Origin: Thermoguttaceae bacterium
GTDB lineage: Bacteria > Planctomycetota > Planctomycetia > Pirellulales > Thermoguttaceae
Direction: 5' to 3'
DNA length: 58,287 bases
Assembly: GCA_028694795.1 (NCBI GenBank)
Contig: JAQVKF010000002.1
Coordinates: 1 to 58,287, forward strand
Position 1 is the stretch's first letter. Each line of letters begins with the position of its first letter. The position numbers and the translations under genes are program-made. Shown in pieces: positions 31,016-48,118 of the stretch. The notes under the pieces are model-generated. The model made no database searches and was not told the DNA's origin. It saw only the letters and a program-made list of their open reading frames with translations.

Positions 31016-31936
31016 TTAGAGAGGGTTTACGTAGCGTCGCAGTCGGAAGGGTCCGAGCGTTTGAGCCAATGGTGCAGCGGTGCGTGGAATCCGCCCAAGC
31101 TGGTCGGCGATCCATTGGTTCATAATCCGCCGTAATTCGGCGGGCATGGGTGTCGAGTATAGTGACACGAGGGGCACACGTAAATCGACGAGCTGCCTCA
31201 TCAATTCGAGCGTGGATTCAGCGATGGAAACGGTCAATCCGCCCCGTTCGAATCGACTGGAGGGATACGCATTGCGCGTGTTCGGAACTGCCGGGATTAT
31301 TCCGTGAGTGTCCGAATAGTTTCGATCCAACTCGTTCGATTCGACGGGAAATCTTCTCGCCCCACGACATGCCGGACAGAGTAATCCATCGCTCGAATGG
31401 AACGCTGCACGACCACGATAAACGACTCGATCACCGCATCCCGAACAGCCGGACAAGTCAGGAAACAGCCCCAAAAGTGTCAAAGTTGCCATCTCCCAGC
31501 GGGTGATCGCTGTAGCCACATTGACATATCGCGGCGTGTGAATTCCATCGCTTGGCTCCCCCGATAATTCCTGAACGATTGACTCAGTTAAATCAAAAAG
31601 TTCTGGGATAGGTTGCTCCGTTTCGGTCAATGTGTCGAGCAGTTCAGCGATGTAAAATCCAGCGTACCAACGCGGCAAATCGGGCGGTAAACGAAACCAA
31701 CGCAGAAGTTTTGCCTCTGTCACCAAGTGCAATGCGTCGGACGATTTACGTAAAAAACTGATCCGACTACTCGAAAGAAGATCCAACGCCGAATCAAATG
31801 GCGCCTTCGGACGCCGCGCACCCTTAGCCAACATATGGAGCTTGCCAGACTCTCGTGTGAAAAATGTCAACACGAGACTACTCTCGCTCCACTCCACGAG
31901 CCGAATGATGATTGCTGTTGCCGATTCGTACGCCAT
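31016..31936 (-). CDS. recO: DNA repair protein RecO
   Basis: IIIRLVEWSESSLVLTFFTRESGKLHMLAKGARRPKAPF; zinc-finger CSGCGDRV...CPACRGA. Confidence 0.93.
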   Translation of the reverse strand: MAYESATAIIIRLVEWSESSLVLTFFTRESGKLHMLAKGARRPKAPFDSALDLLSSSRISFLRKSSDALHLVTEAKLLRWFRLPPDLPRWYAGFYIAELLDTLTETEQPIPELFDLTESIVQELSGEPSDGIHTPRYVNVATAITRWEMATLTLLGLFPDLSGCSGCGDRVVYRGRAAFHSSDGLLCPACRGARRFPVESNELDRNYSDTHGIIPAVPNTRNAYPSSRFERGGLTVSIAESTLELMRQLVDLRVPLVSLYSTPMPAELRRIMNQWIADQLGRIPRTAAPLAQTLGPFRLRRYVNPL

Positions 31937-32369: not shown

Positions 32370-32708
32370 TCAAAAGGTTTTGAAACGAAGATCGCGGATA
32401 CCAGAACCTGGCAACAATTGCTGTAATTTCTTGAGGATTTCCGCTTTTCGGAAAGTGAGTTCCTGCGCAAAAATAGAAGCGGCAACGCGTATTTCCAACA
32501 CGCCGCGTCGTACTGTGCCAGGAGACGTTTGTTTGGCAAACAGCTCACCAACCGCCGCATTCCACGCCTCACGAAGCTGATCGGCAGTACGTACACGACC
32601 GAATCCTGTGCGCGCTAAATATTGATTCAGCACTTTTTGAATGGGATCCGGTTCGCGCCAATAACGTTCTTCGGGATCCTCCTCTCGATAACGACCTTTC
32701 GCCATCAT
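32370..32708 (-). CDS. DUF721 (DciA-like) domain protein
   Basis: VLNQYLARTGFGRVRTADQLREAWNAAVGELFAKQTSPGTVRRGVLEIRVAASIFAQELTFRKAEILKKLQQLLPGSGIRDLRFK. Confidence 0.85.
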   Translation of the reverse strand: MMAKGRYREEDPEERYWREPDPIQKVLNQYLARTGFGRVRTADQLREAWNAAVGELFAKQTSPGTVRRGVLEIRVAASIFAQELTFRKAEILKKLQQLLPGSGIRDLRFKTF

Positions 32709-32907: not shown

Positions 32908-34488
32908 TTATTTTACGGAGTTGCTCGCGCCGATTGCGTTCAAGCCCATACCGTCACCAATCAGCACGATCACATTCCGAATGCCGCTGCGGCTGTCGGT
33001 AATCGCGCGCGAGGACAGACGAAACACGTCCGTATTATCGAGATACCGCGTATATTCCGGACCGTACAACGCTCCCATTTCGGGATCCGTTTTGATCGTC
33101 ATCCCTTGGAAAAGCACCTCGTTGCCACCCCAAACCCAGAATGGCACGAGCGAATTGCTATGACCTCCACTGTTGAAACGGAAATCGGCCACGCCGTCGC
33201 CATTGACGTCACGAATCGGATCAAACGCAAATTTGTCCGATTCCGGTCCCCAAACCAAACCGGTTTCATGATCGGCGGTTGAAATAACGAGTGTCTCCTT
33301 GAGCAGATCGTTCTTTTCGAGCCATTCGAGTACGGCCACCGTCGCCTTCTGATGAGCCTGAATTTCTTCCACAATACGCGGCTTTTGATTCGCGTGGGCG
33401 GCCCAGTCTACCGCGCCACCCTCAAGCATCACATAAAAGCCCACATTACCTGCTTCTTTCGAACGTTTTTGGAGAAAATTGAGCGCACCGATAATCATCG
33501 TCGTTTCATCAGGCACATTGGTATTCATCGGCACCGCATATGGTGCGGGTACCTCCGCATCAGTCTGCACGCCACGTGCCCCCGTTCGCCCTTGCTGCAG
33601 GGTCGAAGCTACAAACGGAACACCAGTCAACTTTGTGACATGCGCAAACGCTTCGTCCATCAACAGCGAACCGTCGGCCAGCTTCTCAAAATCGGCCTTC
33701 GTCTCGATCAGTTTCCAACCGTTTGAGTGTTTCCCCGATTTTAACAGTTCCCATGTTTCCTTACCACCGACATAATTGTAATTTCGCTTTTCTGGATCGG
33801 TAATGTCACGACTGCTGTCGTCATACATCGGATGCCCCGCGCCAAATACGAGGTCAAGCGTACCACGAGTGTACATTTCATTCGCGATTTCCGCGTAATT
33901 TCCGCGTGAAAGATTGTGCGCTCCACCGAGTCCCGCTGGCGTGGCGTGTGACAGCGGTACCGTCGTGACTGTACCGGTGATTTTCCCGTACTGTTTCGCC
34001 AGCTGCGGAATCGCCACAAAATCAAATGAGCGTTGGTCTGTTGAAGCATCGCTTTTGTTAATTGAACTATTGTAAGTTTTGGATCCACTGCCCAATGCTG
34101 AGGCCGAGGCCGCCGAGTCGGTTGGGGTACCAGTTAGAAAACTTGGACCTGTGGCCTTGCCTTCCTTTTCTGCGTGCCAAATCTTCGCTGGATCGTAAAT
34201 CAAATTCACGTCTTGCTCATTTTTCCCTGTGGCTTTACCGCTTTGGGTGAGCGGATAGGTCGAAGCGGCAAACTTGGTCGCGCGATCAACCCACTTTCGG
34301 GCCGTATGGCTGGGTAACATTCCGTAGTCGACCGTTTTGGCTGATTCTGCCACTCGCTGCTGATGCGTCGCGGCATCCTGAAACGTCACTGTCGGTTGAT
34401 CGTCTGCCGCAAACGTCGTACCCACAAGCGACATTCCAATGATCGCCGCCCCTAACCAACATGGCGCATAACCCAATCTTTTGTTCAT
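32908..34488 (-). CDS. exported alkaline phosphatase with circularly permuted motif order
   Basis: Signal peptide; TPTDSAASASALGSGSKTYN, VPLSHATPAG, MLEGGAVDWAAHAN, STADHETG, SGGHSNSLVPFWVWG, and then NVIVLIGDGMG at the C-terminus. Confidence 0.9.
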   Translation of the reverse strand: MNKRLGYAPCWLGAAIIGMSLVGTTFAADDQPTVTFQDAATHQQRVAESAKTVDYGMLPSHTARKWVDRATKFAASTYPLTQSGKATGKNEQDVNLIYDPAKIWHAEKEGKATGPSFLTGTPTDSAASASALGSGSKTYNSSINKSDASTDQRSFDFVAIPQLAKQYGKITGTVTTVPLSHATPAGLGGAHNLSRGNYAEIANEMYTRGTLDLVFGAGHPMYDDSSRDITDPEKRNYNYVGGKETWELLKSGKHSNGWKLIETKADFEKLADGSLLMDEAFAHVTKLTGVPFVASTLQQGRTGARGVQTDAEVPAPYAVPMNTNVPDETTMIIGALNFLQKRSKEAGNVGFYVMLEGGAVDWAAHANQKPRIVEEIQAHQKATVAVLEWLEKNDLLKETLVISTADHETGLVWGPESDKFAFDPIRDVNGDGVADFRFNSGGHSNSLVPFWVWGGNEVLFQGMTIKTDPEMGALYGPEYTRYLDNTDVFRLSSRAITDSRSGIRNVIVLIGDGMGLNAIGASNSVK

Positions 34489-35380
34489 CTCTTTTTCCTG
34501 TTTCTCGTATGACTAAAAATGAAACTGTTTAACTTAGTTAATATCTCGAACATCTCGACTTTTGTACCGCCAAATGCGTGAAGAATTCTATCGCATACAA
34601 TGGTGCGTGTGGATTTTCAACGCATAAATCGTTGGGAAAACGATTTGCCGATACGAAAAATATCCCCGTTAATATTTTCGCTAGAGGTTCCGCACGAAAA
34701 ACGGTGGACAGAAAACAAATTTCCATAGAAAGAGTCCAACTCGTTGATTTTGGCTGGCTGCGTATGGCCGGCATGGACCTGTGGAACCCACCGATCTCCC
34801 CCATTATACCGAAAAACAGAAGAGGAATGCTAGTGTCATTCTCGCAAGAGAACCCAATTTTTATCCGAACTTATTCCATTTAATTTGGTACTCACTCTCG
34901 TGATGCCTCGCGGCCAAACCGTTTTGGTATGGGTAAGTGACAGCCAATGGTACGGAAACAGACTCCATCAATTTCTTTTTTCAACGGAAATAATTCATCT
35001 CCCCCAATGAAATACAAAGGGCTTTTCAAAAGCGGGATAAGTCTCCCTGTCCCAAGCTGTTCTGGGGCAAAAATATTTTCATCATTGAATCGGCGTCACC
35101 GAATCGGTCAAATTTCAAACTCCCGCAGCTCATGATCTCTTCTTACCATTTTGCCGCGGCGTTGGTGTACCACAGTCCCGACAAGTCCCATCCCGGCGAG
35201 CATTGCCATGTCGCGGGTTCTGGATGGTGTGTCGCCTTAAGTCCGACGTTCGTCATGTTCAAACTGATCCTCCCGCATTTGTGAACGGAAACGCAAAACG
35301 GTTATCGTAACCCGAATCGTAGTCGAATATGTTATGGTCGATGAAAACCGATACGTGTTCCAATCGTGACTGTCGAATAT

Positions 35381-45872: not shown

Positions 45873-46436
45873 ATGGAATCACTACCCTCTGAGCCAGTCT
45901 CTGTGCCAGCGTTGCCAAGTCGTCCGCGTGTGTTGCTTTTTACGGGCGATGGCAAAGGCAAAACGACCGCCGCTCTTGGCATGGTGTTACGAGCTGTGGG
46001 GAACGGGCTGCATTGTCGTGTGGTTCATTTTCTGAAAAGTGATATCGGGGTGGGTGAATACGCGGCCTTACAACAATTGGGGGTCGTTGTCCAAATGTGT
46101 GGTTTGGGATTCGTGCCTCATTCCGATACTCCGCTGTTTGCGCGACATACGCAAGCGGCGCAATACGCTTTGCAGGTGGCCGAACAATTTCTCGATCAAG
46201 CCGATTGTGATCTACTCCTTCTCGACGAAATTTGCGGCGCGATTGTTCTCGGGTTGATTCCCGTAGAAAGGGTGACCGCGCTTTTGGCACGCGCCCGTGC
46301 TCGACAAATCATCGTACTCACGGGACGCGATGCACCACAGGCTCTGATTGATCAAGCTGATACCGTCACGGAAATGCGAAAAATCAAACATGGATACGAC
46401 CAAAAGATTTTCGCACAACGCGGCGTTGAGTTATGA
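45873..46436 (+). CDS. cobO: cob(I)yrinic acid a,c-diamide adenosyltransferase
   Basis: RVLLFTGDGKGKTTAALGMVLRAVGNG P-loop; DLLLLDEICGAIVLGLI; IVLTGRDAPQALIDQADTVTEMRKIKHGYD. Confidence 0.94.
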   Translation: MESLPSEPVSVPALPSRPRVLLFTGDGKGKTTAALGMVLRAVGNGLHCRVVHFLKSDIGVGEYAALQQLGVVVQMCGLGFVPHSDTPLFARHTQAAQYALQVAEQFLDQADCDLLLLDEICGAIVLGLIPVERVTALLARARARQIIVLTGRDAPQALIDQADTVTEMRKIKHGYDQKIFAQRGVEL

Positions 46437-46540
46437 TTTTGGGATGGTGTCCGCCACTCTTTGTGGCCAATCTCGTCGTAAACGCGGAATTGGACAGCGG
46501 AATCCGATGGGAAAATCTCAACATCTTCGAGGAGGTGGAA

Positions 46541-48118
46541 ATGCGATATTGGATCGGTACGGACGAGGCGGGATATGGACCGACGCTCGGCCCTCTCTTG
46601 ATTTCTGCCACGTTATGGACCGATACCGACCAGACGATGGACGATTGCCCTCACAATGCCCATTTTGCGCATGTCTCCGCTCCGATGGAACCCGTTTCAA
46701 GAGAGCGAGTGACGGAAAAAACGATGGTCAAAAAACAACGTAAACGCCGCGCGATGGGGTATGACCACGATCTTTTCGATTGGAAACAACCCGACGAATC
46801 GCAGAAATCAGTCAGACCGCAGGCATTGACATCGGGAGCGCCGTCCGAAACCACAGCAAGACTGCTGACATGGAGTATGGAACGTTTCGCGTCGGCGCTG
46901 GTGACCACGTTGCCACGGATGGCCGCAACTCGGCTCGTGGCCGCCGATTCGAAGAAACTATACACACCACAACGTGGAATCGCACCGCTGGAGCGGCATT
47001 TATTCGGTTTTTTTGAACTTGCGGGCTGGCCGACCACGACGACTTTTCGAGGACTACTTCAACGCGCGGCAAGCGATGATACGCTTTGGCAAACGGTGCC
47101 ATGGTATCGGACGTTTGACATGCAGCTGCCCCAAAATGTGCTTGCGAACCACGGTCAAATCGTGGCCGAGACTCGGCGAAAATGGGCCAATGTGGGGATT
47201 GCTTTCCGAAATTTCGCCTGTCGTTTTCTCGATGCCGACGCATTTAATCGCCAACTCGCTCAACAGGAATCGAAAGCCGATTTACTCTCCACGGCGACGC
47301 TCGGATTGGTCATTCGCCATCTGCGAGACATTCTTACCACGTCCGATTTTCCGGAGGAACTTTTTGACGGATCTTCCGAATCCTCTTTTTTATCCGCGGT
47401 CCGCACGACCTCAGAGCGACGTCCGCTGGTGACGGTATTGTGCGATAAACATGGCGGACGCAATGCCTACGCTTCCATTTTGACGCGTCTCTTCTGTGAG
47501 CAGACAGCTCACGATGATCCCAATGCCAATCGTGCGGCCGATTCCACCTTTGATTCACCGCATAACAGTCATACGGCCCCTACCGTTATCGAACGATCGC
47601 GCCGTTTGCCGCCATCTTCGGCACTTTCCGCGTTATGGCCGGTGTTACATCCGTTTACGCCGCCACGGATTGTCCGCGAAAGTCGTGAGGAGAGTGTATA
47701 TGAGCTGGAAAGTACCCAATTTCGAATACGTTTCTACTTTACCGCGAAGGGTGAAAAACGTATTCCGGTCGCTTTGGCATCCATGCTCTCGAAATATCTG
47801 CGCGAGATGGCGATGACCGCATTCAACGCATTCTGGCAGCAGGCGTGGCGGACGAACGCCGAATCGCCCCAATTGGTGTCCGAATGGTCTCCATTCGTAA
47901 AACCATTGGAATCAATGGAACAAACCAAACCTCTTGCGGAATCGGCAAAATCGATGGAATCTGCCACGAAATCGGGGGTGAAATTGGACCGTGTGGGGCT
48001 AAGTTCACTACGTCCGACAGCGGGATATCCGGAAGATGCGGTTCGATTTTTGGCGGAAATTGAACCGCTGCGTCAAAAACTCGGTATTCCGCTCGCCATG
48101 CTTCGCCGCGCTAAATAA
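46541..48118 (+). CDS. large divergent RNase HII-like protein
   Basis: Strong SD ggaggtgg before ATG; MRYWIGTDEAGYGPTLGPLLISATLW, VAADSKKLY, VTVLCDKHGGRNAYASIL, PVALASMLSKYLREMAMTAFN correspond to RNase HII motif order. Confidence 0.75.
   Translation: MRYWIGTDEAGYGPTLGPLLISATLWTDTDQTMDDCPHNAHFAHVSAPMEPVSRERVTEKTMVKKQRKRRAMGYDHDLFDWKQPDESQKSVRPQALTSGAPSETTARLLTWSMERFASALVTTLPRMAATRLVAADSKKLYTPQRGIAPLERHLFGFFELAGWPTTTTFRGLLQRAASDDTLWQTVPWYRTFDMQLPQNVLANHGQIVAETRRKWANVGIAFRNFACRFLDADAFNRQLAQQESKADLLSTATLGLVIRHLRDILTTSDFPEELFDGSSESSFLSAVRTTSERRPLVTVLCDKHGGRNAYASILTRLFCEQTAHDDPNANRAADSTFDSPHNSHTAPTVIERSRRLPPSSALSALWPVLHPFTPPRIVRESREESVYELESTQFRIRFYFTAKGEKRIPVALASMLSKYLREMAMTAFNAFWQQAWRTNAESPQLVSEWSPFVKPLESMEQTKPLAESAKSMESATKSGVKLDRVGLSSLRPTAGYPEDAVRFLAEIEPLRQKLGIPLAMLRRAK

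Follow-up and report, generated by a model that had tools for sequence, protein, structure and literature searches.

A probable natural circular permutation of a PhoA-type alkaline phosphatase in a Thermoguttaceae bacterium, and a second, differently cut permutation in planctomycetes and Chlorobia

An open reading frame in the window (the whole 58,287-nucleotide stretch of Thermoguttaceae DNA analysed here) is best explained as encoding a genuine alkaline phosphatase that has undergone circular permutation in nature, a reading to which we assign a probability of roughly 0.8. The gene product would be an exported, two-zinc-one-magnesium enzyme of the PhoA type. An ordinary chain of this type runs from the first beta-strand (beta-1), with its DGMG ligand, through TDSAAS to DNTDVF, whereas the window chain starts just past beta-1 and ends with it, and the former first strand would be connected to the former C-terminal helix by a short linker. 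The gene is laid out as follows.

32908..34488, minus strand: whole open reading frame of the permuted PhoA-type alkaline phosphatase, 526 aa, ATG start, stop-free
34496..34499, minus strand: likely ribosome-binding site AGGA, 7 nt ahead of the ATG, as read from the sequence
34405..34488, minus strand: putative signal peptide, residues 1-28 (MNKRLGY...GTTFAA), judged by eye from the sequence
34279..34404, minus strand: new N-terminal part, residues 29-70, beginning just past the beta-1 position of relatives
34105..34122, minus strand: TDSAAS nucleophile motif, residues 123-128, with S125 (PhoA S102)
33937..33951, minus strand: SHATP, residues 180-184, with H181 and T183 (PhoA 153 and T155, Mg site)
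33904..33906, minus strand: R195 (equivalent of PhoA R166), invariant in alignment A3
33394..33423, minus strand: EGGAVDWAAH, residues 356-365, with E356, D361 and H365 (PhoA E322, D327 and H331)
33259..33279, minus strand: TADHETG (ADHET at 405-409), with D406 and H407 (PhoA D369 and H370)
33154..33171, minus strand: SGGHSN (GGHS at 441-444), with H443 (PhoA H412)
33016..33039, minus strand: DNTDVFRL, residues 484-491, the C-terminal element in ordinary relatives (alignment A4)
32980..33015, minus strand: 12-residue linker SSRAITDSRSGI tying the old C-terminus to the old N-terminus (alignment A4 and model)
32911..32979, minus strand: relocated beta-strand 1 and the next helix, RNVIVLIGDGMGLNAIGASNSVK, residues 504-526, with D512 (PhoA D51)

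Motif order and coordinates are exactly as the original prediction gave them, including the stretch at 32944-32976 that encodes NVIVLIGDGMG, and its statement that each ligand motif is present once also holds. The full set of ligands is kept, with D512, S125, T183, R195, E356, D361, H365, D406, H407 and H443 singly matching all catalytic PhoA positions (D51, S102, T155, R166, E322, D327, H331, D369, H370 and H412), and D124 and S125 are invariant in alignment A3. By sequence the protein belongs to the Alk_phosphatase superfamily (PF00245; 4.5e-31, 108.7 bits against a curated cut-off of 24.4), although this match covers residues 123-411 only. In the PDB, both sequence and structure match it best to PhoA-type alkaline phosphatases, and enzymes of this type (TAB5 2iuc, Shewanella 3a52, Halobacterium 2x98 and E. 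coli PhoA 1alk) have the same motifs, ligands and predicted fold. They carry the beta-1/DGMG ligand at the N-terminus, ahead of TDSAAS, whereas in the window protein DGMG lies C-terminally, at residues 512-515. The same parts are present, each once, in rotated order; judged from its sequence, the protein departs from the standard linear order yet may well work like the rest of the family. The putative signal peptide has a basic n-region, a hydrophobic core and an A-x-A-like end, and the gene is the sole copy in its own genome assembly.

The relocated strand was scored with a position-specific matrix built on the beta-1 segments from 53 relatives. The window C-terminus reached +30.1 bits, against -3.8 bits for the best other stop-free 23-mer (63,133 scored, over the six reading frames of the window), so the match is not due to chance. 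Within residues 1-121 the best score was -22.6 bits, in line with the earlier observation that no DGMG equivalent precedes TDSAAS. It follows from these scores that beta-1 has its homologue in the C-terminal segment and none at the N-terminus. 'DG' occurs at three sites in the protein (272, 431 and 512), with the ligand-strand context at 512 only. RNVIVLIGDGMGLNAIGASNSVK aligns without gaps with the N-terminal segments of 19 relatives and also with the second-domain starts in three tandem proteins. At the other end of the chain, BLAST pairs residues 39-49 (AATHQQRVAES) with residues 54-64 (ASMYQGRVSES) of one of these tandem proteins, L002, 10 residues past the first DGAG of L002; residues 39-52 form a helix in the model of the window protein, with a pLDDT of about 70-80.

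AlphaFold2 was run on alignment A4, in which the N-terminal segments of relatives were placed under the window's C-terminus; the model is supportive and not independent proof, because this input alignment already favours the permuted fold. It has a pLDDT of 88 and a pTM of 0.88. The original prediction had proposed structure prediction as a check, and the moved strand was modelled confidently, with a pLDDT of about 95-97 (means of 97 and 95 for the ten-residue blocks with strand 505-511 and helix 516-523). The leading PDB matches of the model in Foldseek were all alkaline phosphatases, and together with the pTM they identify the overall fold as that of an alkaline phosphatase; by query these matches reached a TM of only about 0.5, since Foldseek follows the order of the sequence, and for that reason the search gave no placement of the moved strand. 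The C-terminal strand would be expected to take up its normal position in the central sheet, where D512 would bridge zinc and magnesium opposite S125 and support ordinary phosphomonoester hydrolysis.

The strand might instead complete the neighbouring subunit of a domain-swapped oligomer, so that the protein would be permuted but act in trans. Alkaline phosphatases of the PhoA type are mostly dimers, and the linker could permit swapping; however, the model of one chain is confident, the loop from the old C-terminal helix (487-497) to strand 505-511 being only seven residues long (498-504), and we regard completion in trans as very unlikely.

The window protein is at most about 49% identical to its closest relatives, which belong to the window's own taxonomic family and to other bacteria. 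DGxG is N-terminal in every ordinary-order relative examined, including the matches read from the window's family, and in the relatives read it lies about 30-40 residues ahead of the CTTYPL region. The original prediction took relatives with an N-terminal DGMG as a sign of rearrangement or assembly error; such relatives are indeed everywhere, but they are not by themselves evidence of an error because DGxG-first is the ancestral order. With the A1 profile, a junction profile in the window's (rotated) order, the ordinary relatives found in the family, order and phylum of the window were matched in two pieces, the DGxG piece first, and the window protein in one piece (1-458). No window-type permutation was found elsewhere in its family (120 genomes) or order (400 sampled genomes), and searches of the phyla of the window, of Opitutales (L002) and of Paludibacter (L008) returned the window only. 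The window type is a singleton, from a draft genome of 310 contigs. In one relative (G012), two phosphatase genes, on contigs C92 and C246, have matches that break near query residue 228, which suggests, at the level of sequence, an insertion near that residue.

Three proteins point to how the rotated order may have come about. L002 (1038 aa, Opitutales; ORF start 3842), L008 (970 aa, Paludibacter; ORF start 3677) and L010 (1048 aa, Bacteroidales; ORF start 3617) are each encoded by a single open reading frame with two complete PhoA-type domains. In all three a second DGxG strand, reached through a short linker, comes right after the DNTD helix of domain 1 and can be aligned through the window's C-terminus; they resemble it in this respect, but still have their N-terminal DGxG and the second domain in full. 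Domain 1 of L002 is the row nearest to the window by path in both trees. Duplication followed by trimming is the classical permutation-by-duplication route, and these tandem proteins appear to be its expected intermediate, since trimming of such a protein at both ends leads to the window layout. Most likely, the gene was duplicated to give an in-frame double phosphatase, after which beta-1 of the first copy and all of the second copy past beta-1 would have been lost.

The existence of tandem relatives is also what one would expect if the gene were a decaying remnant of a tandem phosphatase, with the second domain deleted and the first left without its DGMG strand, giving no working enzyme. As a singleton in a draft genome the gene could be dying: its end branch is long (about 1.0 substitution per site versus a median of 0.27), and its beta-1 is more diverged than that of any of the 53 relatives (30 bits, where the relatives average 62 and none is below 35). 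Decay nevertheless seems unlikely to us. The frame runs for 526 codons without a stop, retains all ligand residues, is equipped with a plausible signal peptide and ribosome-binding site, and has a tail whose fold is predicted confidently. No beta-1/DGMG segment or second-domain remnant was found in any frame up- or downstream of the open reading frame, and the loss of one beta-1 with retention of precisely the other is what a functional permutation requires. The complete ligands and the confident predicted fold would argue against a dying gene. The interpretation first proposed, a genuine circular permutation and not a truncated tandem copy, is favoured by the single ligands, the short linker and the confident strand.

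A second permuted layout (type 2) was found in other bacteria. In two planctomycete proteins recovered with a rotated profile, L067 (1405 aa or more) and L068 (659 aa), the phosphatase part opens at TDSA and closes with a DGM strand and a TTWSV...GYDT region, and the two are 53% identical across the whole permuted layout. L067 also has an N-terminal calcineurin-like phosphoesterase and chitobiase C-terminal-like repeats, so that two phosphatase-type domains are combined in one protein. Across all genomes searched of both planctomycete classes, these two seed cases were the only ones of type 2; ordinary-order cousins were found in one of the two classes. The expectation that the architecture would recur in other planctomycetes is therefore borne out in part, with a differently cut permutation in two other planctomycete families and the window's own cut site found in none.

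In the phylum of Paludibacter, the type-2 layout occurs in long open reading frames of about 22 genomes. These carriers are almost certainly Chlorobia, because 22 of 23 genomes examined for FMO (PF02327), a protein of green sulfur bacteria, have it. Among the 99 Chlorobia-class genomes searched, 19 have a complete type-2 unit, two of these units sitting on very long contigs, and others have partial copies. Identity to one Chlorobia representative, L190, is 60-89% in Chlorobia and 44-45% in the two planctomycetes. In Chlorobia the unit (L186-L211) is nested within a He_PIG Ig-like domain, which Pfam recognises in two stretches flanking the phosphatase: the intact He_PIG of L210 reads LSFNAGTRTFSGTP, and a nested example reads LSFEASSHN...(phosphatase)...AMTFSGTP. 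The ordinary-order cousins L114, L115 and L070 are continuous across the type-2 cut site. Less confidence attaches to a model of L190 (pLDDT 71), although its DGM strand and the two Ig halves mostly reach about 80-95. In L190 (1240-3009) the phosphatase in its split He_PIG follows a choice-of-anchor I domain (NF038117), and some Chlorobia genes carry two type-2 copies (G1349, G1365 and G1465). Conservation of type 2 in Chlorobia and in two planctomycetes shows that a permuted fold survives in nature.

These findings also bear on whether two fragments were misjoined, or a tandem repeat collapsed, during assembly of the window. The assembly is a draft in 310 contigs and tandem genes are prone to collapse. 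However, the locus lies mid-contig in 58 kb, the tail is in frame behind a linker that resembles those of the tandem proteins, GC3 is 0.70 in the tail versus 0.71 in the preceding 24 codons, and collapse of a tandem would leave an N-terminal DGxG. Permuted order in itself is not an artefact, because it recurs in at least 19 Chlorobia genomes. An assembly error is, in our judgement, highly improbable.

Like the window protein, type-2 proteins run from TDSA to DNTQ/DDTQ, a linker and the DGM strand. The two do not share a cut site: type 2 is cut just ahead of TDSA, whereas the window protein is cut just past beta-1, and type 2 forms a separate clade, is nested in a split Ig-like domain and is mostly found in long multidomain proteins. 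Trees built on the catalytic core put type 2 together with ordinary planctomycete enzymes from a different branch (100/99), the window lying among relatives of the first kind. A single origin was considered as well, and a joint clade of the window type and type 2 was rejected (p-AU 1.1e-6). Within type 2, the ordinary-order L115 is placed beside L067 and L068, but the AU test did not reject a single type-2 clade (p-AU 0.106); type 2 may reflect one or two events, two origins being suggested by the tree. Alkaline phosphatase therefore seems to have been reshuffled at least twice in nature. We think it likely that the PhoA-type enzyme was permuted independently two or three times, in the window lineage by duplication and trimming and at a second hinge once or twice, with the latter form ending up inside an Ig-like domain and spreading among green sulfur bacteria as a surface or secreted phosphatase.

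On the same strand, the window gene lies upstream of the genes for DciA and RecO (31016-31936 and 32370-32708, minus), and the ten neighbouring genes checked included no recognisable member of the phosphate regulon. Elsewhere in the window, at 46433-48118 (plus strand), Pfam recognises only a 27-residue RNase HII-like start in a 561-aa open reading frame; BLAST comparison of two 561-aa neighbours gave no meaningful similarity.

An E. coli alkaline phosphatase circularly permuted by engineering has been reported to have high specific activity (Kojima, Ayabe and Ueda 2005, cited in PMC2395249 and PMC3281007), and its title, as cited in PMC2395249, indicates that permuted PhoA can be highly active; that enzyme is man-made, whereas the window protein is natural. 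The original prediction knew of no description of a naturally permuted family of this type, and our literature search (natural, permuted, Chlorobium and planctomycete alkaline phosphatase) likewise found no natural permuted form, which is weak evidence because most subscription journals fall outside the search. Although alkaline phosphatase is a textbook enzyme, a form permuted in nature seems to be undescribed. Such enzymes are easily mistaken for truncated ones, because order-bound models cover only part of them, as Pfam does here.

The conserved second permutation makes the window permutation both more credible and more interesting. With different cuts and with tandem intermediates at hand, the two unrelated permutations would offer a natural test of permutation routes, that is, duplication and trimming versus insertion into a host domain. 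They would also test which hinges the alkaline phosphatase fold tolerates, and the nested type-2 form suggests that an enzyme may be displayed by insertion into an Ig-like hairpin.
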